Assembly (NCBI RefSeq): GCF_030538655.1
Contig: NZ_JAUNTO010000009.1
Coordinates: 76,487-124,943 of the forward strand
Direction: 5' to 3'
Length of the DNA: 48,457 nt
DNA from: Paracoccus sp. (in: a-proteobacteria)
GTDB lineage: Bacteria; Pseudomonadota; Alphaproteobacteria; Rhodobacterales; Rhodobacteraceae
Shown: positions 2,124 to 10,732 of the stretch, one piece after another
Position numbering within the stretch: the stretch's first letter is position 1
Layout of the letters: every line of letters starts with the position of its first letter
Position numbers and translations under genes: made by a program
Notes under the pieces: model-generated
Database searches by the model: none
What the model saw: only the letters and a program-made list of their open reading frames with translations
Told to the model about the DNA's origin: nothing

Positions 2124-2170
2124 CGCGGGAACGTAGGGGAAACATTAACTGATTCGACCCATCCGAACCC

Positions 2171-2213
2171 GTTGCGCATATTTATTTATCGTTGGCTTTC
2201 AATATTGCGCAAC
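2171..2213. promoter_or_regulatory. Inverted repeat in AT-rich leader, possible operator
   Basis: GTTGCGCA at 2171-2178 and TGCGCAAC at 2206-2213 form a perfect 8-bp inverted repeat. The interval is rich in A and T, unlike the surrounding coding DNA. It lies between mobA and the small gene at 2315. A GATAAT sequence at 2234-2239 could act as a -10 element, but no convincing -35 is correctly spaced. There is no T-run after the repeat, so a simple terminator is less likely than a protein-binding site. The function is inferred. Confidence 0.35.
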
Positions 2214-2314
2214 GCACGCTCTCTTTTCCGGTTGATAATCTTTTAAAAACAAAACCGCTCTCCTGCTTGAAATGCGCAGGCTGTCCGCACGGGCAACCAT
2301 AACAGGAGACTGCG

Positions 2315-2761
2315 ATGCTTACCACCGTTGAACTCAAGGGTAATTTTGACCGTCAGGACGGGGTGTCCTCTGTTTCGGGGACGCTGATCTTTACCCTTTC
2401 TCAACGTGATTTCGATGGCTCGACCGTGATTGAACCGGCGGCACAGACTGTGCCCCTGGACGGCGAGGGAGAGTTTACAGGGGTCAGGTTGTGGCCCAAT
2501 GAACGGGGGCGCATGGGCAGCACCTATCGCGTGGAATATCAAAAAGCCGGTGCCGCCAAGCCCGACCTGATCGAACCGGCGCTGTTCGTGCCTGACAGCG
2601 CGGCGCCGCTGGATCTGGCCGATCTGCTGTTGATGAACACCGTCGCCCGCGAAACCCGCCTGAGCCGGATCATCCCGATCAGTGCCGATGTCTTTGCCCA
2701 ACGGCAACAGGCCGGCACGTTGGTCGAGGCGCTGTATCTGGTCGAAGGGGAAGCGGCATGA
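2315..2761 (+). CDS. Small protein resembling phage appendage or spike-base domain
   Basis: The 148-aa product has no signal peptide or membrane segment. Its pattern is a beta-rich domain (about 1-80: GTLIFTLS, then VPLDGEGEF, then LWPNERGRMGSTYRVEY). A PDSAAPLDLADLL segment at about 93-105 and a helical C-terminus follow. From memory, the combination of LWPNxRG, SxYRV and PDSxxxDLADLL resembles small N-terminal domains of phage tail or neck appendage proteins. No database search backs this. AGGAG at about 2302-2306 supports the ATG. The stop overlaps the start of the next gene (ATGA at 2758-2761), so the two are probably translationally coupled. It could be the base or adaptor for the large proteins that follow. 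Confidence 0.65.
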   Translation: MLTTVELKGNFDRQDGVSSVSGTLIFTLSQRDFDGSTVIEPAAQTVPLDGEGEFTGVRLWPNERGRMGSTYRVEYQKAGAAKPDLIEPALFVPDSAAPLDLADLLLMNTVARETRLSRIIPISADVFAQRQQAGTLVEALYLVEGEAA

Positions 2762-5652
2762 GCCTGGAACGCTTTTTCGGACAATTCGACCGTGCCGTGA
2801 TCGTGCGCGGCGGGGTGGCGGCGGATGTGGCGCTGCTGCGTCGTGACGGCAGTTCGGCGCTGCGGCGCGCGGTGGTGCCGTCGGCCCCGGTGGCCGAGGT
2901 CGGCGTGGCGCTGTCTGGCGCAGCGCTGCCCGGCGAGACGATCACCGTGGTGCCGGGCGTCTATGCCGGGTTCCCCGATGTCACGCTTAGCTATCGTCTG
3001 ATCCGCGATGGCGTTTCCGAACCGCTGGAGGTGCTGGAATTCGCCCTGACCGAGACCGATCTGGACCGCAGCATCGAGGTGATCGAACAGGCGGAAAACC
3101 CGCTGGGCACGGCGCAGACCAGCGCGTCGGTGACGGTGGCGCGGCTGGCCCCGTCGCTGGTCACGCTGAGCCATGGCGGCGCGGATGTGGCGACCGATGC
3201 CGGGCTGCCGCTGGTTCTGGCGGAACTGTCCGCCGATGGCACCCGCCCGCTGAACTGGGTGGCCGAGGGGCTGGGCGCGCATGTGGCGATTGCCACCGAT
3301 GGCGCGGTGCCGGTGCTGCAACTGGTTTCCATGCCGGACGAGGGCAGCCATGACGTGACCATCCGCGCGGTGAACGCGGCGGGTGCGGCAGAGGCGGGCT
3401 TTGTGCTGACCGTGGCGCAGCCGGAAATCCGTGCGCCGGGTCATGTCACCCTGACGGCGGCGGATGCGGTGGTGCCGGCGGATGCCGGACTGCCGCGTGT
3501 TCTGGCCGTGGTGTCGGCGGATGGCTCGGCCCCGCTGGACTGGGCGCTGGAGCAGTCGGGCGATGCCTTTGCGCTGGAACAGGGCGAGGGTGGGCTGGAA
3601 CTGCGGCTGATCGCCATGCCCGATCCGGGCGTGACGACGGTGGCGGTCAGCGCAGCCAACGCGGCGGGAACGGCGCGCGTGGTGTTTGACCTGATCGTGA
3701 CCGAAGCCACCATCGCGCCGGGGCCGGTGGTGTTGTCGGCGCAGGCCGTGCGGGTGGTGCCGGATCAGGCGCTGCCTTTGGTGCTGGCGAATGTGGCGGC
3801 GGATGGTTCGTCGCCGATGGACTGGGCCGTGACCGGCAGCGAGGCGCTGACCCTGACCGAAGAAGACGGCGTGGTGCAACTGGTTCTGGTTGCGATGCCG
3901 GAACCGGGCGATCATTCGGCACAGATCATCGCGACCAATGCAGCGGGCACGGCGCAGGCCGGGTTCACGCTGACGGTGGCGGGTGACCTGAATCCGCCCA
4001 CGACCCTGACGCTGGACGCGGTTGCGACCGAAGTGCAGCCCGACGCGGACCTGCCGCTGTTGTTGACCACGCTGGTCAGCGATGGCACCGCGCCGCTGGA
4101 CTGGTCTCTGGTGGGGGCAGACGGGTTCTGCGCGCTGGAACCGGCGGGCATGGGCGCGCGGCTGATGCTGATTGCGATGCCTGGCCCCGGCGATCATGCG
4201 GTGCGGATTCAGGTGCGCAACCCGGCTGGCGTGGCCGAGGCGGGCTTTGTGCTGACCGTCGCCGAGACGGTCGAGGCGACCCCGCTGCTGCTGTCGCAGG
4301 CCGAAGCCGGGATTGCCACGGATGCCGATCTGCCGCTGCGGCTGGCGCTGGTGTCTGGCGGGACGGGTGCCGACTGGATGCTGAGCGGCGGCGACGGCTT
4401 TGCCGAACTGATCGCCCGTGACGGTGGTGCCGAACTGGTGCTGGTGGCAATGCCGCAGGCGGGCGTCTGGCCGCTGCGGGTGCAGTCGGGCACGGCGGGT
4501 GCCGATTTCGCGCTGACCGTGACGGAGGCGATTGTTCAGCCCCCCGTGGTCATGCCGCTGAAGCTGAGCGCGGGTCAGGCGCATGACGTGCGGCAACTGG
4601 ACGGCGGCGCCATCGGCTTTTCGCTGAGCGGGACGGATCATGACGGCGAATATTCCATCGCCAGCCATCAGATCGAGGCCGGTCATCCGGTGGTCTTGCG
4701 CCTGCCGCAAGTGGTGGAAGCGCCCGCTGGCACGTTCACGTTGATGGGCGATGGCCTTTATGCCTGGCCCGAGGCTGATCCGGTGTCGGTCTTTGTCGAT
4801 TGGGAAGTGGACGGAGTCGTGGCCGGTTCGGGTGCCAGCTTTACCCGCGATCCGTTGCAGATTGATGCAAGGATCGACATGGCGCTGCGGCTGGTCAATC
4901 TGGCCAGCGTGCGGCAGCAGGCTGACCTGACGCAGCGGGTTATGGTGCAGGCGCAGACGCTGTTCGCGCCCAAGACGATGCGCTTTAATGCGAGCGAGGG
5001 CGACATGATGCGCTGGGACCGCAGCTTTGCCGATGTGCAGCAGGCGCTGGTGATGACGCGGTTCCGCTTTGACCCCGAGGCGGGCACGGCCGATTGGCGC
5101 GACAGCGTTTTCCAGTTCAGCAACAGGTTCCAGATCACCGTGTCCAGCGCCACGGGTTCGCTGCGCGCCTTCCTGCGCGCCGATGCGCCGGCCGACAGCG
5201 CCAGCACCGGCTATATACAGACCTTGCCGGCGAATATGGTGCTGGCCCCCGGCGATCTGGTCGATGTGATCCTTGGGATCGGGGCGTTTGGCGCCAATGG
5301 CACACCGGCGGCCTATTCTACGGCGCGGATCAATAACGGCGAATGGCGAAACGGTGCCGTGGTCAGTGCAAGCGATCGCGTGATCCGGGGCGAATATTCA
5401 ACCGGGGTGCGTCTGGGCTATGGCGTTGTCAGTGCGCTGGCCCGTGGCAGCCATAATCTGCATCGCACCGCGCTGTGGCTGGGCAATGCGATAGACCGCG
5501 AGACGGCGCGCGAGCTGTTTTTCCGGCCTGACGGCGGGCTTAAGCAGCCCGAGGTATCCCGGACGATTCTGGGGCAACCGCTGATCGACGTTTACGACGG
5601 TGCCAATCACGGAACCGCCGGGGCGCCCGATTTCATCACCGATCTGGCATAA
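2758..5652 (+). CDS. Large repeat protein: five Ig-like repeats plus lectin-like C-terminal domain
   Basis: The 964-aa product has no signal peptide and no RTX or membrane segment. Residues 1-134 are a lead-in region with one Ig-like stretch (about 45-130). Residues 135-596 hold five tandem repeats of 88-95 aa, each with the pattern LPxVLAxxxADGxxPLDW, then LxLxxMPxxG, then NAAGxAxxxFxLTV. Residues 597-964 are not repetitive. They include beta-rich segments (GSLRAFLRADAP, ARINNGEWRNG, DVYDGANHGTAGAPDFI) that resemble concanavalin/LamG-type lectin domains, a loose call from pattern only. The gene overlaps its small upstream partner by 4 bases and sits 11 bases before the glycosidase-like gene. 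A role as the shaft of a surface or particle-borne fibre that binds polysaccharide is an inference. Confidence 0.7.
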   Translation: MSLERFFGQFDRAVIVRGGVAADVALLRRDGSSALRRAVVPSAPVAEVGVALSGAALPGETITVVPGVYAGFPDVTLSYRLIRDGVSEPLEVLEFALTETDLDRSIEVIEQAENPLGTAQTSASVTVARLAPSLVTLSHGGADVATDAGLPLVLAELSADGTRPLNWVAEGLGAHVAIATDGAVPVLQLVSMPDEGSHDVTIRAVNAAGAAEAGFVLTVAQPEIRAPGHVTLTAADAVVPADAGLPRVLAVVSADGSAPLDWALEQSGDAFALEQGEGGLELRLIAMPDPGVTTVAVSAANAAGTARVVFDLIVTEATIAPGPVVLSAQAVRVVPDQALPLVLANVAADGSSPMDWAVTGSEALTLTEEDGVVQLVLVAMPEPGDHSAQIIATNAAGTAQAGFTLTVAGDLNPPTTLTLDAVATEVQPDADLPLLLTTLVSDGTAPLDWSLVGADGFCALEPAGMGARLMLIAMPGPGDHAVRIQVRNPAGVAEAGFVLTVAETVEATPLLLSQAEAGIATDADLPLRLALVSGGTGADWMLSGGDGFAELIARDGGAELVLVAMPQAGVWPLRVQSGTAGADFALTVTEAIVQPPVVMPLKLSAGQAHDVRQLDGGAIGFSLSGTDHDGEYSIASHQIEAGHPVVLRLPQVVEAPAGTFTLMGDGLYAWPEADPVSVFVDWEVDGVVAGSGASFTRDPLQIDARIDMALRLVNLASVRQQADLTQRVMVQAQTLFAPKTMRFNASEGDMMRWDRSFADVQQALVMTRFRFDPEAGTADWRDSVFQFSNRFQITVSSATGSLRAFLRADAPADSASTGYIQTLPANMVLAPGDLVDVILGIGAFGANGTPAAYSTARINNGEWRNGAVVSASDRVIRGEYSTGVRLGYGVVSALARGSHNLHRTALWLGNAIDRETARELFFRPDGGLKQPEVSRTILGQPLIDVYDGANHGTAGAPDFITDLA
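3160..4545 (+). repeat. Five tandem ~280-bp repeats encoding Ig-like units
   Basis: The stretch encodes residues 135-229, 230-323, 324-415, 416-508 and 509-596 of the 964-aa protein. Units share the LPxVL, ADGxxPLDW, AMPxPG and NAAGxA landmarks but have clearly diverged in sequence. They therefore look like old duplications kept for their fold, not a recent expansion. The last unit is the shortest and has lost part of the PLDW segment. Confidence 0.85.
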
Positions 5653-5663
5653 GGGGACGGCCA

Positions 5664-8459
5664 GTGACCTATCACATTTCGACCAAAGGGCTGGAAACAG
5701 CCCGCAATCTGATCTTTGTCCGCGATGATAAGGGGGCCGAACCCGAGGCGCATACGGCAACGGTGGATGTTCTGGGCAATGCGTTCACCCGCCATGCAAG
5801 GGTCATGCAGGGGCGGCTGGTGCCGCCGCTGATGGTGCAGCAGTTTCAGCCCGACTCGATCGACCATGCATCGAACACGCTGCATTTCCCGCGCAATACC
5901 GTCGCAGGCTGGGATTCGTGGAAAAGCGGCTGGCTGGATGGTGCCGAAGTGGTCGTGTTCCGTTACGAAAACGGTCGCGCCATTCAGGCGGGCACGACCA
6001 CCGTCACGCAAAGCGTAGCGCGACAGGTCAACCCGCTTCACGGTGACAAGCTGGCGATTCCGCCAGGTGTCAGCAGCTATCGCTGGTCGCCCGAAGACTG
6101 GTGGCGGCGCGGCGGCGTGGTCTGGATCGCGGTTGCGGCGGTGGATGAACAGGGCCGTCGCGGGCCGTGGTCGGCGCCGGTGGCCTTTACCGTCGGTGAG
6201 GGGCGCGGTGTGAATGACACGACCGACGCAGGCACGCTGATCGAGAGCGGCAACTTTCACCAGCACATGCCGGACGCGACGCTTCCGGTGCCTGCGGCTG
6301 TGTCGGTCGCGCCGCAGAATGGCAACCGCACCGCCGAAATCACATGGACTCCGGTGCCGGGGATGCGCCATGTCATCGGCCGGTCCTATGAACCCGAGTT
6401 CGCGCAGGTTGAAACGCTGACGGTCGCCGACGCCTCTTTCATGCGTGAAACCGATGTGCTGACCGTCCGCAAGCGGTTCGACCATCGCTATCAATTCGGG
6501 GATCTGATTACCGATCGCCTGTGGGGGGCATCGACCGTTGGCCGGTTCGGGGTTTCGGGGATCGGCGCTTTTGCCGATATGATGCCCGAAGGCGTCCGCT
6601 TTGAGTTCATGTCCGACGAAGCCGGTCCTTTCGTGCGCCTGCACGTGGCCGAGGGGCGCAGCCACACCATTCAAAGCGCGACCCATTCGGGCACGGCTGC
6701 ATCGTGGTATCATGTGCTTGACCCGGCGCGGTCGTATAACCTGCATACGGTCATGCGCGCGTCCGCGCCCGCCTCGCTGACGATGCGGGTTACCGATGCC
6801 GGGATCAGCAATATGACGCGTCATGTCACGACGGATTGGACCGCGCAGGACAACATCTTTACCCCGGCCAGCCTGTTGCGTTCGGCCGGGGCACGGATGA
6901 CGCAGATCATCGTGCGTGGGCCGGTGCAACTGGACATCCGCCAGATCACCTTTTGCGAAGCCGGGACCACGCCCTTTGCCGCCACGCCCGAGGAACGCAA
7001 GGTTCTGCTGGCCAGCGCCAGCAGTCACATCCGCTTTCATGCGTTCTGCAAGACCAATCCCTGGACCTATAGCATGGAGGATTTTCTGGCCGAGATCGGC
7101 GTGCCCGCCACCAAGGGTTGCTCTCTGCCACAGCATTTACGCATTCTCAGAGACTTGCGCGACAGCCCTGAAGGGCGCGAGATGGCGGCGCGTGTCGGCC
7201 ATTCGATCCTGAACCCGTGGATTCAGGTCGAACCGCCATGGTCGCGGGACGAGGACTGGCAGATGCTGGCCGGGTATCTTTGCACCACCTACGATGCGGG
7301 TGCGCCAGACAGCCCCGAACAACGCGGTGCCGCGCTGCGCGTCAGTCAGGGCCAGATCAGGCCGTGGCAGGATGAATTCGACAGCATCCGTATCGAGGTC
7401 GGCAACGAACCGTGGAACAGGATGGGCGCATTCTATACCCTGACCGAAGTGGGCGGCGTCGGTGGCGGCACATGGAATGGTGCGCTGCTGGATCGCGCGG
7501 CCGAAGCGATCATGGCGGCGCCCGGCTATGACGGCGACAAGTTCAGCTATTATCTGGGCGGCTGGTCGGTCAGCCAAGCGTGGAACTCTGCCAGTATCGC
7601 CGCGTCAAAGCACGCCGATTTCATTGGTTATGCCGATTATAACGGCGGTTGGGACAGCGGACTGAACGAGGCGTTGTCGGTCGATGATCCTGCTGCGGTG
7701 CTCAAGACGCTGGCCAATACGGGCGTGCAGTCGGGCACGGTGACGCCGCGGCTGCATAACATGCCGCGGCTGGTGGAACTGTGCCGTGTCGCCTCGGAAG
7801 GCCGGGCCAAGCCGATCCGCGCCATGCATTACGAGGCCGGGCCGGGCTATGTGATGAACGGGCTGAACGGGCATTCGGTGACGCCGGAACAGCACGCCGG
7901 GCAGGAACGGCTGATGAAATCCGTGGCGGCGGGCACGGCGACGCTGGATGCGTTTCTGTTTAACGCCAGCGCGGGCATCCACAGCACCAACTTTTTCACC
8001 TTGAACGAAGGCGAGCATTGGAAGGCGCGGGCAAGCTGGGATCGCGGCGGGGCGTTCAACCCGCCCTATCAATGGTTCTGCTTTGCCAACCAGTATCTGA
8101 CCGGGCGCATCAGGCTGTTGCCGCCGCAGGTCGTGCATGTGCTGAACGATGGTGGTGGCAAGGCGCATGGCGATGCGGTGCGTGTCTATATGGTGGAACG
8201 CCGCAACGGCGAACGGGCACTGGCATTTGTCAACGTCGATTCGCTGAACGCGCATGAGGTCAAGGTGCGGATGCCGCAGGGGAGCTGGCGCTGGACGCGG
8301 CATTACATGACCGGGGATATGCTGGACAGCAACATCACCGCCGAAACGGCGGACAAGGTGGCGATCCTGTCCGAGCAGATGCCCGATGGTTGGGGCGGTG
8401 CGATGCTGGATGTCACCCTGCCGCCCGGCAAGGCCGAGGTCTATATCGCCGCGGCATAA
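5664..8459 (+). CDS. Glycoside hydrolase-like protein, clan GH-A type signature
   Basis: The 931-aa product starts at GTG 5664, with AAGGGGACGG at 5651-5660 as ribosome-binding site. No signal peptide is seen. Residues 1-180 and about 205-430 look like beta-sandwich modules (fibronectin or carbohydrate-binding style). From about 445 the protein resembles a TIM-barrel hydrolase. IEVGNEPWN puts a candidate acid/base Glu at 582, and MHYEAGPG puts a candidate nucleophile Glu at 724. That spacing fits strands 4 and 7 of clan GH-A enzymes. A beta-rich tail (about 830-931) follows, as in arabinofuranosidase- or glucuronidase-like families. The exact GH family and substrate are not recognised. It is the last gene of the three-gene unit and is followed by a strong terminator. 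Confidence 0.7.
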   Translation: MTYHISTKGLETARNLIFVRDDKGAEPEAHTATVDVLGNAFTRHARVMQGRLVPPLMVQQFQPDSIDHASNTLHFPRNTVAGWDSWKSGWLDGAEVVVFRYENGRAIQAGTTTVTQSVARQVNPLHGDKLAIPPGVSSYRWSPEDWWRRGGVVWIAVAAVDEQGRRGPWSAPVAFTVGEGRGVNDTTDAGTLIESGNFHQHMPDATLPVPAAVSVAPQNGNRTAEITWTPVPGMRHVIGRSYEPEFAQVETLTVADASFMRETDVLTVRKRFDHRYQFGDLITDRLWGASTVGRFGVSGIGAFADMMPEGVRFEFMSDEAGPFVRLHVAEGRSHTIQSATHSGTAASWYHVLDPARSYNLHTVMRASAPASLTMRVTDAGISNMTRHVTTDWTAQDNIFTPASLLRSAGARMTQIIVRGPVQLDIRQITFCEAGTTPFAATPEERKVLLASASSHIRFHAFCKTNPWTYSMEDFLAEIGVPATKGCSLPQHLRILRDLRDSPEGREMAARVGHSILNPWIQVEPPWSRDEDWQMLAGYLCTTYDAGAPDSPEQRGAALRVSQGQIRPWQDEFDSIRIEVGNEPWNRMGAFYTLTEVGGVGGGTWNGALLDRAAEAIMAAPGYDGDKFSYYLGGWSVSQAWNSASIAASKHADFIGYADYNGGWDSGLNEALSVDDPAAVLKTLANTGVQSGTVTPRLHNMPRLVELCRVASEGRAKPIRAMHYEAGPGYVMNGLNGHSVTPEQHAGQERLMKSVAAGTATLDAFLFNASAGIHSTNFFTLNEGEHWKARASWDRGGAFNPPYQWFCFANQYLTGRIRLLPPQVVHVLNDGGGKAHGDAVRVYMVERRNGERALAFVNVDSLNAHEVKVRMPQGSWRWTRHYMTGDMLDSNITAETADKVAILSEQMPDGWGGAMLDVTLPPGKAEVYIAAA

Positions 8460-8475
8460 CCATGTGCCAACAGAA

Positions 8476-8502
8476 ACGCCCCGCGACAGCGGGGCGTTTT
8501 TC
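8476..8502 (+). terminator. Rho-independent terminator of the three-gene unit
   Basis: ACGCCCCGC at 8476-8484 pairs with GCGGGGCGT at 8489-8497 around a GACA loop. A T-rich tail (TTTTTCTTTT) follows. It lies 16 bases after the stop of the glycosidase-like gene. Confidence 0.9.
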
Positions 8503-8777
8503 TTTTGGGAGGGCTGCGGGGGCGGGCCGGATGGTCGATGTTGGCGGCGCAACTGTTTGTGACGTGCAGGAGGCCCCGCGAATATTTCTGTGTGCAGTGT
8601 ATTCTGGGATGACACTTGTTGCGATGCTGCCGGTATGAGGGCAGCCAGCCAGTCGCCCCAGCCTTATATCCGAACCTGCGCCACCTGCGCGCGAACCTGT
8701 CGGATCAGGCTACCGCCAGCGGGCGCGGCGACCTCCGCTGCCATCGGCTGTATCTGACCCGACCGTGCCTCTGCCGC
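8503..8777. other. Intergenic stretch between convergent genes, nothing recognised
   Basis: This GC-rich stretch separates the terminator from the end of the minus-strand RTX protease. No RNA gene, clear hairpin with T-run or conserved protein segment was recognised on either strand. Confidence 0.5.
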
Positions 8778-10604
8778 CTAAAGGATCAGCGCGTCGTCGG
8801 GCAGGGTGGTCAGGTTGCGCAGCAGGATGGCGAAATCGGCGCGGCTGTCACCGTTGAAATCCGCTGTCAGACGCAGATCTGCGTCTTCTCTTACAACGCG
8901 CAACTGGCGCAGCCCGCCGGAAAACGGATCTTCCCCGATCAGGGTCAGCCGCAGGGCTGACAGATCCAGCCTGTCCTGCGCGGGGTTGAAATCGGTGATG
9001 ACATCGGGCGCATCACTGCTGGCATCGGTGCGGGCGCGGAACAAGAATATATCCGCCCCTGCGCCGCCCGTCAGCGTATCGGCCCCGGCACCGCCGTTCA
9101 GCGTATCGTTGCCCGCGCCGCCGTTCAGCACATCATTGCCGTTGCCGCCGCTCAGGCTGTCATGCCCGCTGCTGCCCATCAGCGTGTCGTTGCCATCTCC
9201 GCCGGTCAGCGTGTCATTACCCAACCCGCCGAAAAGCTGGTCGTCGCCGGCATGGCCGTGCAGCCAGTCGTTGCCGTCATCGCCATAAAGGCTGTCGTTG
9301 CCGTTGCCGCCGCTTAGCCGGTCGTCGCCCGCTCCGCCGCGCAGGGTGTCATGGCCGGGACCGCCGTTCAGCGTATCGTTGCCCACCCCGCCCAGCAGCG
9401 TGTCATTGCCCGCCCCCCCGTTCAGCAGGTCGTCGCCGCCGCCCCCGTCCAGCCAGTCGTCGTTATTGCCGCCCCACAGCACGTCATTGCCATTGCCGCC
9501 ATAAAGATGGTCAGCATGATCCCCCCCGTGCAGCGTGTCGTTGCCGTTGCCGCCGAACAATGTGTCGCGCCCACCCTCGCCATACAGCAGATCGTTGCCC
9601 GCGCCGCCCTCGATCCGGTCCCAGCCCGCGCCGCCGCGGATGGTATCATTGCCAGCCAGCCCAAGGATGGTGTCATTGCCCGCCCCGCCCCGGATCAGGT
9701 TGGCCGCACCGTTGGCGGTGATGTGGTCATTGCCGCTGCCCGCGACATAATTCTCGATCACGGTGTCATAGGCGATGCCCATGATGCCCTTGTGGCCCAG
9801 GATGTCGGAAAACTGGTTCTGTCCCAGACGCACCACCTGATCCCTGGTATCGCCTGACAGGTTGATCGTATCCCGCCCGCCCTGATCGTAGATGGTGAAC
9901 ATGATCGGCGTGCCGTAATCGCCCGCCCTGATCCAGTTGCCCACAGCCTTGTGAATGCCGGTCGCGTTGCTGCCCCAGCCATAGGTGGTGTTGCCCGTCG
10001 CCACGCCGGTCGGTTTGCCGTAAATCTGATGGATCGCGATGATGTCGGCGGGCATCGGCGTGACCGCATAGGCGTAGGATGCGTTGACGGTGGGGTTATC
10101 ATCGGGCGCGAAATAGGACATGACCGACAATTGCCAACTGTCGTTTGCAAACCAGTTGTCGCGGCCATAGCGGGCAGTGCCATTATACAGCCCGGCGTGC
10201 CCCAGCCCAAGGGCGTGGCCGATCTCATGAACCCAGGTCTGCATGTAATAGCTGTTCAGGCGGGTGCCGTAATCCAGCGACCACCAGTAATCGACATTGA
10301 TCGTGGCCTGGGTCAGCCGCCCCGTCGCCGTCATCGTGGATTCGGTATAGGCCCCGCCACTCCAACTGGTCAGCTGTATATCTGTGCGGCCAAAATCCTC
10401 GAACTGAAATTTGATCCCGGAAACATCGGTCCAGGCTTGCAGCGCCAGTTTGATGGTGGACAGTTGGTCGCTGAAACTGATCCAATTGTCCACCTTCAGC
10501 GTCTTTGATGCGTCCAGATACCATTTGCGCGAAATCTGGCCGGTTTCCGCCCAATAGGTCGAGGTCAGATAGGTCGCAAGCTGTTGTGCGGTCAGTGTTT
10601 TCAT
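8778..10604 (-). CDS. Serralysin-type RTX metalloprotease (M10 family)
   Basis: The 608-aa product is a secreted zinc endopeptidase by family. The metzincin zinc motif HEIGHALGLGH spans residues 126-136 (His126, Glu127, His130, His136), followed by a Met-turn in SVMSYF. Residues about 300-520 are some two dozen calcium-binding RTX nonapeptides (GGxGxDxLx). The C-terminus resembles the serralysin beta-roll cap, with DVITDFNPAQDRLDLS and a hydrophobic end. There is no N-terminal signal peptide, as expected for type I secretion, but no ABC/MFP/TolC exporter genes are visible here. The ATG at 10604 is preferred to an in-frame TTG at 10613. Neither has a strong ribosome-binding site. It could be self-processing, with residues 1-25 acting as a short propeptide. 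Confidence 0.9.
   Translation of the reverse strand: MKTLTAQQLATYLTSTYWAETGQISRKWYLDASKTLKVDNWISFSDQLSTIKLALQAWTDVSGIKFQFEDFGRTDIQLTSWSGGAYTESTMTATGRLTQATINVDYWWSLDYGTRLNSYYMQTWVHEIGHALGLGHAGLYNGTARYGRDNWFANDSWQLSVMSYFAPDDNPTVNASYAYAVTPMPADIIAIHQIYGKPTGVATGNTTYGWGSNATGIHKAVGNWIRAGDYGTPIMFTIYDQGGRDTINLSGDTRDQVVRLGQNQFSDILGHKGIMGIAYDTVIENYVAGSGNDHITANGAANLIRGGAGNDTILGLAGNDTIRGGAGWDRIEGGAGNDLLYGEGGRDTLFGGNGNDTLHGGDHADHLYGGNGNDVLWGGNNDDWLDGGGGDDLLNGGAGNDTLLGGVGNDTLNGGPGHDTLRGGAGDDRLSGGNGNDSLYGDDGNDWLHGHAGDDQLFGGLGNDTLTGGDGNDTLMGSSGHDSLSGGNGNDVLNGGAGNDTLNGGAGADTLTGGAGADIFLFRARTDASSDAPDVITDFNPAQDRLDLSALRLTLIGEDPFSGGLRQLRVVREDADLRLTADFNGDSRADFAILLRNLTTLPDDALIL
9050..9700 (-). repeat. RTX nonapeptide-coding repeats
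   Basis: About 24 consecutive 27-bp units encode GGxGNDTLx-type calcium-binding nonapeptides of the metalloprotease. On the plus strand they read as repeated GCCGTTGCC- and CAGCGTGTC-like words. The units vary and have no spacer pattern, so this is protein-coding repetition, not a CRISPR array. Confidence 0.9.
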
Positions 10605-10732
10605 ATCGTGCAAAACTCGGTCTTTGGGCGGCAGATCAGAGACTTGGCCTTAACATGTGGCCCCTCGCGGGGCAACATTGCATAACCGGCGAATTTGACA
10701 CGACATTGAGCCGTGCCTTGCGATCCAGAGGG

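Follow-up and report, generated by a model that had tools for sequence, protein, structure and literature searches.

A phage-type receptor-binding module with a putative polysaccharide-cutting tip, kept outside prophages in Paracoccus

Some appendages of phage-like particles are encoded away from the genes for the particle itself. The gene transfer agent (GTA) of Rhodobacter capsulatus (RcGTA) carries a head spike, Rcc01079/Rcc01080 (GhsA/GhsB), the product of two genes with a 325-residue fibre starting with an Ile-Ala-Leu-Gly repeat, and a tail fibre, Rcc00171, which has 371 residues with a helical rod at its start and whose gene lies outside the main GTA cluster (PMC7296036). The base of the head spike is a jellyroll that binds capsid pentamers. 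TspA (rcc02623) is an ectopic polysaccharide depolymerase that aids RcGTA through biofilm (PMC13420450). Among bacteriophages, the solved neck fibre of Anabaena phage A-1(L) is made of gp82, gp81 and gp80, which are an anchor, repeated beads and a distal carbohydrate-binding protein encoded in one operon (PMC10966104). Here we describe a three-gene unit in a 48,457-nucleotide stretch of a Paracoccus sp. genome (contig NZ_JAUNTO010000009.1, positions 76,487 to 124,943; hereafter the window), which is by homology a phage-type receptor-binding module lying outside any phage. Its genes are the following:

2315..2761, + strand: P0001, 148 aa, putative anchor (open reading frame (ORF) call; family seen in prophages and in a viral tail fibre)
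2758..5652, + strand: P0002, 964 aa, putative shaft; five Ig-like repeats, C-terminal domain of unknown fold (ORF call; repeat and C-terminal homology)
5664..8459, + strand: P0003, 931 aa, hydrolase-like putative tip with a GTG start (ORF call; family profile with FN3- and CBM4/9-type domains; E582 and E724 invariant)

The unit is probably a phage-derived receptor-binding and depolymerase module, composed of anchor, shaft and polysaccharide-cutting tip, that Paracoccus has kept outside prophage. We favour this reading because all three proteins show homology to components of the tail modules of Paracoccus prophages and their gene order recurs in a decayed prophage of this genome, on contig C44; because no export signal is recognisable, the genes are under purifying selection and the module co-occurs with a paralogue of P0003 encoded in an exopolysaccharide (EPS) cluster; because the viral contig L102 has a distant P0003 homologue behind a gene with a 4-base overlap; and because the module-type copies of P0003 form one clade and stand-alone modules are found at other chromosomal sites. 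In this fibre P0001 would provide attachment to a phage-like particle, P0002 would be the Ig-repeat shaft and P0003 the tip that cuts polysaccharide, presumably a host-type exopolysaccharide. Since signal peptides are lacking, the proteins should remain in the cell until lysis, like phage parts, and lysis would be their sole way out.

P0001 is by homology a member of a phage-fibre anchor family, in agreement with the first-pass annotation of this DNA, which had called it phage-appendage-like. Model A2, which combines P0001 with two close relatives, matched a viral tail fibre on contig L103 (35%, E 1e-8), where the anchor domain forms the N-terminus of the fibre and the fibre gene comes after a head-closure gene. 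Another model (A5) matched prophage anchors outside its own rows, with E-values down to 2e-22; the A7 model has P0001 among its 16 rows, so that the score of P0001 with it is by construction. The family was found in 28 of 125 Paracoccus genomes with the first model and in 37 of 125 with a wider one, and 51 anchor loci were examined. At L131, L132, L133, L135, L136, L137, L138, L139 and L143, at least one tail gene lies upstream of the anchor gene: the genes that precede the anchor in Paracoccus prophages are dtp (distal tail), hub, peptidase or J-like, and PHROGs matched the scanned upstream genes of L131 and L143 to distal tail protein, tail protein, tail fibre protein and one family of unknown function. 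A shaft-type gene follows next in most prophage loci. The prophage modules L131, L132, L133, L135, L136, L138 and L143 have the anchor family of the unit with a shaft-type gene behind it, and differ from the unit in lying behind J, hub or peptidase genes. Queries with tape measure, distal tail, hub, peptidase and J proteins (E 1e-4) found no homologue in the window, whose other genes were not scanned with PHROGs; the earlier statement that no phage genes surround the unit holds to this extent, and as hub, peptidase and J genes are lacking we do not file the unit as a prophage. Searches with phmmer against the PDB gave no relative of P0001, in a copy of the database whose content was unchecked for Rcc01079; with the fused 504-aa fibre as query, phmmer gave a chance match only. 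By tblastn, none of 50,697 phage records matched P0002 or P0003, the homologue on L102 or either of two anchor proteins, P0001 itself not being among the queries.

P0002 contains five MPxxG motifs at a spacing of about 94 aa, so that its description as a repeat protein stands. The same Ig-like repeat is found in a prophage shaft (genome G028, 42% over 125 aa; locus L143), and the C-terminal region of P0002 matches a protein on the host's own contig C44 (28% over 232 aa, E 1e-24). The further label 'lectin-like' was not borne out by any family match above cut-off: Pfam gave Ig-like matches below cut-off only. PHROGs linked P0002 to phrog_31373, of unknown function, at E 1.4e-8, the remaining PHROGs matches of the unit proteins being weak; sequence searches of the PDB returned nothing for P0003 and five chance-level matches for P0002, and NCBIfam returned nothing for P0001, P0002 or P0003 searched singly.

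Within the genome, contig C44 holds a decayed prophage that retains fragments of the distal tail, hub, peptidase and J genes, 55-75% identical to the prophage of G028. Homologues of all three unit genes follow in order at a contig end, the second and third being frame-broken; this decayed tail region (L016, 11695-18363) lies near a transposase-like ORF. Other prophage modules carry different genes in third place: L131, L136 and L138 have a large one after the shaft and L135 one of 413 aa, in which Pfam saw a weak beta-helix match below cut-off (L131, L138) or none (L135, L136), and in L132 a SASA esterase domain lies within the shaft gene. The large third genes of these prophage modules are not of the P0003 family, which only the C44 remnant has.

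Such relatives, and a decayed prophage with homologous genes in the same genome, could also mean that the unit is all that survives of a decayed prophage, without a job. We consider this unlikely in view of the state of the genes. None of the three frames is broken in the window, in the sister genome G014 or in P. albicereus, the mobA setting described below is constant in several species, and no other phage gene was found. Between the window and G014, dN/dS is 0.07 for the anchor, 0.25 for the shaft and 0.19 for the tip, at a dS that resembles that of the neighbours (0.28-0.57 over the genes compared); the neighbours give 0.15 (mobA), 0.31 (RTX gene), 0.02 (rmlC) and 0.16 (rmlB). Against G028 the values are 0.12, 0.48 and 0.35 for anchor, shaft and tip and 0.36 for mobA, shaft and tip being no stricter than mobA. 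The window unit is under purifying selection.

The P0003 family combines FN3-type and CBM4/9-type domains with a C-terminal half without known family, which carries N581-E582 and E724 in every one of the 34 aligned rows. It resembles a retaining hydrolase of clan GH-A, whose glycoside hydrolases have a TIM-barrel fold and two catalytic glutamates; judging from the motif, the two invariant glutamates here may be catalytic. The first-pass term 'glycosidase-like' has support of an indirect kind only, from invariant glutamates and family domains, and a curated hydrolase match is missing. In a scan of named genomes, the best 80 of 85 relatives fell at 77 loci; the closest of them, L026 (82%) and L025 (63%), are both Paracoccus bins and place the genome in Paracoccus. 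For a census of EPS settings, 40 loci (L028-L067; ORFs by a simple script) were compared with 17 exopolysaccharide markers from Rhodobacterales: neighbouring ORFs matched at least two markers in 24 loci, at least one in 28 and none in 12. A strongly hydrophobic N-terminal stretch (score 2.0 or more) occurs in 31 of these 40 relatives; the nine below the signal threshold (L039, L042, L046, L050, L053, L055, L056, L062 and L064) include partial or probably mis-started ORFs. By the same heuristic P0003 reaches 0.89 in its first 75 residues, and no N-terminal hydrophobic stretch appears in P0001, P0002 or P0003, in the P0003 kin of G014, G028 and P. albicereus, or in the viral homologue on L102.

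The host itself encodes a P0003 paralogue with a signal peptide on contig C24 (L017, 8571-11579), in an apparent exopolysaccharide cluster beside a flippase-family gene; P0003 is 26% identical to it over the alignment and 32% in the genome search. Thioclava plasmids show an annotated setting of calcium-binding protein, hydrolase relative and flippase. These EPS-cluster proteins share family and invariant glutamates with P0003 and differ from it in signal peptide, EPS neighbours and clade. In a tree of 45 rows (without L049, L050, L057, L065 and all of L068-L101), the window P0003, the C44 copy and the kin from G014, G028 and P. albicereus make one clade with 100/100 support, and the C24 copy falls with those from other Paracoccus and from Jannaschia. 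By these comparisons P0003 is a signal-less offshoot of a family that elsewhere mostly has a signal peptide and often sits in exopolysaccharide clusters. PslG of Pseudomonas may be an analogue of the EPS-cluster form. The viral contig L102 (58.6 kb) carries at 5830-9386 two genes with a 4-base overlap, of which the second encodes the distant P0003 homologue and runs off the contig end.

A family so often found in exopolysaccharide clusters, of which the host keeps an EPS-cluster copy, invites the explanation that P0003 is a free enzyme that remodels or disperses the host's own biofilm, exported by an unrecognised route, its fibre-like neighbours serving for attachment to the cell surface. This appears quite improbable: a signal peptide is found in none of the three proteins, the virion-type clade is separate and the anchor is of a phage-fibre family.

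G014 encodes proteins 94, 85 and 82% identical to P0001, P0002 and P0003 in the same gene order as the window, that is, mobA, the unit, an RTX protease gene and rml genes (mobA, rmlC, rmlB and rmlA named by model match). The P. albicereus unit is flanked by gltX with a tRNA-Met on one side and a mobA-like gene on the other (gltX identified by model, mobA by reading), and in the window the rml genes lie beyond the protease gene, so the trio is not always beside an EPS system, the situation that the first-pass annotation had set against its own proposal. In all, mobA adjoins the module in four species, and this points to retention in the host by vertical descent. This setting also speaks against a further possibility, that the stand-alone fibre is a donor cassette which temperate phages use or capture on recombination or induction and which is selected through them and not through GTAs. 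Phage fibres are known to be exchanged, and close relatives of the unit occur in prophages of the same genus; on balance we hold such a donor role to be very unlikely.

Stand-alone modules are not confined to the mobA site. In an anchor tree of 36 rows, from which duplicates (L177, L180), members from other genera (L147, L183) and pieces under 95 aa were left out, 24 rows come from loci without a tail gene in the fetched DNA and 12 from loci with tail genes. The flanks are at most about 10 kb long and contig ends cut several of the loci, with phage genes possible farther out. On this tree the label must change at least twice, so modules have left (or entered) prophages on two or more occasions. 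The stand-alone settings comprise mobA (window), a carboxynorspermidine neighbourhood, a hemY-like neighbourhood and a transporter-like gene named by no model.

Long matches to the P0003 family occur in only four of 125 Paracoccus genomes (G000, G014, G028 and G458, the last being P. albicereus), with six candidates scored per genome and a single 72-residue match in G083 (E 1e-4) not counted; all four have both the EPS-cluster form and the module form, giving a Fisher p of 1e-7 without correction for kinship. Of 394 genomes from the wider family, 4 match, the host's included, with at most two candidates scored per genome.

A number of observations weigh against the proposed module or its parts. 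The Fisher value overstates the case because three of the four genomes are fairly close kin; ranked by CcrM score against the host's own genome, G014 is 2nd, G028 16th and G458 79th of 123, and on account of this last rank kinship is not the full explanation. P0003 alone has no family match, and Pfam at E 0.01 found no catalytic or hydrolase family in 34 members, only CBM_4_9 (13) and fn3 (3). The L102 homologue is 27% identical to P0003 on a branch too long to place. When the P0002 N-terminus was compared with prophage shaft N-termini, the window, G028 and G014 copies were not reported at E 10; the P. albicereus copy fell among shuffles at E 0.12 and only the C44 copy stood above them. The G028 copy of the unit lies on two contigs, the region upstream of the unit is not conserved with G028 and the inverted repeat found there is absent from the G028 alignment. 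Finally, the host's own contig C38 (244559-247445) has a GTA_TIM gene with a DUF2793 fibre-type gene about 1.7 kb away on the same strand. DUF2793 is a domain of the RcGTA tail fibre Rcc00171, and Pfam found no DUF2793 match in the unit.

Which particle the module might decorate is a separate matter. We tentatively suggest, as a possibility only, that it is host-made and most plausibly a GTA, which would then be able to pass through the slime made by kin; the GTA_TIM/DUF2793 locus of the host and the TspA precedent lead us to rank a GTA-borne or GTA-released depolymerase first. GTA_TIM is present in 120 of 125 Paracoccus genomes, so that co-occurrence of module and GTA (p 0.32) is without power. 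A broader and more doubtful extension is that Paracoccus has repeatedly domesticated prophage fibre operons into exchangeable GTA tip cassettes matched to the lineage's own exopolysaccharide, particles thereby being tuned to kin. The tip here would be a virion-type member of a family encoded in the host's EPS cluster, and the particles would deliver DNA to kin. Were the module carried on a host-made particle, this would suggest, in a form open to testing, how GTAs reach kin within biofilms and why some appendage genes sit outside the main GTA cluster, and the module would represent a second, unrelated solution beside TspA. Even without the GTA step, phage-fibre operons are here seen to persist under selection at constant positions in the chromosome, with tips that differ between relatives, and the comparison points to a hydrolase-like family, lacking a catalytic model in Pfam, that exopolysaccharide clusters and virion-type modules have in common.

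The described systems themselves differ from the unit. With the RcGTA head spikes and Rcc00171 it has in common, on the available text, appendage genes beyond the main cluster and polysaccharide binding, putative here (PMC7296036). The spike proposed at first pass survives as a likely base, shaft and tip of phage-fibre type outside a phage, by homology; its equation with GhsA/GhsB is rejected, the number and lengths of genes and the N-terminal peptide of the fibre being different in what that source describes (PMC7296036). Identity with Rcc00171 is likewise rejected, as the lengths disagree and neither the helical rod of the accessible description nor DUF2793 is found in the unit (PMC7296036). 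TspA shares the proposed role; it is a single trimeric beta-helix protein encoded next to lysS, whereas the unit has three genes by mobA (PMC13420450). It was rejected as an identification, Pfam giving no beta-helix match in the unit and the neighbour being mobA, not lysS. The A-1(L) neck fibre resembles the unit in layout and may serve as a precedent of design, not as a shown relative. The best PDB match of the anchor profile is a human Dock1 domain (E 0.034) and the second is this neck fibre, aligned at gp82N residues 3-62 (E 0.27, not significant). Its repeat consists of many copies of one protein, unlike P0002, and its distal protein is described, in the part of the report available, without enzyme activity (PMC10966104). 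Among the literature matches listed for Paracoccus GTA, prophage fibre depolymerases and orphan domesticated fibres, no title concerns this unit, titles alone being no proof that it is unpublished.

Two further features flank the unit:

8477..8496, + strand: intrinsic terminator, a stem-loop followed by a T run (sequence and folding)
2170..2214, no strand: inverted repeat upstream of the unit, candidate operator, with arms at 2170-2182 and 2201-2214 (sequence reading and alignment)

The tight packing of the genes and the strong terminator of the initial description are confirmed by coordinates and folding. The P0001 and P0002 genes overlap by ATGA (2758-2761), 11 bases separate those of P0002 and P0003, and third-position GC of 0.69-0.80 in the three ORFs supports coding. 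A 45-nt stretch at the terminator folds at -24.7 kcal/mol (z -5.1), equalled by 0 of 200 shuffles; a consensus terminator scanner did not list the stem-loop. The inverted repeat is near-perfect, with TTGCGCA and TGCGCAA cores, and common to the window and G014. Its lack in G028 leaves no evidence for control by GafA or CtrA, and the accessible parts of the literature on the two regulators gave no usable GafA motif. On the other side of the unit, a serralysin-like metalloprotease with RTX repeats (8778-10613, - strand) separates it from the rml genes and is the fastest-evolving of seven genes compared with G014. The segment 10792-14092 (+ strand) holds rmlC, rmlB and rmlA with an rmlD-like ORF between them, by reading, and places dTDP-rhamnose synthesis near the unit.

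In other Paracoccus, stand-alone trios at other chromosomal sites (L134, L150, L168, L171 and L172; also L160 and L167) have an unrelated third gene read as SGNH-like; Pfam gave no match for the two of these genes that were scanned. In G509, the stand-alone anchor loci L165 (9601-10510) and L166 (9024-9933) share a 910-bp segment that is 100% identical and inverted, about 198 kb apart on the same contig, and similar pairs at 95-99% occur in G490, G495, G533, G535 and G471. The G509 pair would fit either gene conversion or an inversion switch.

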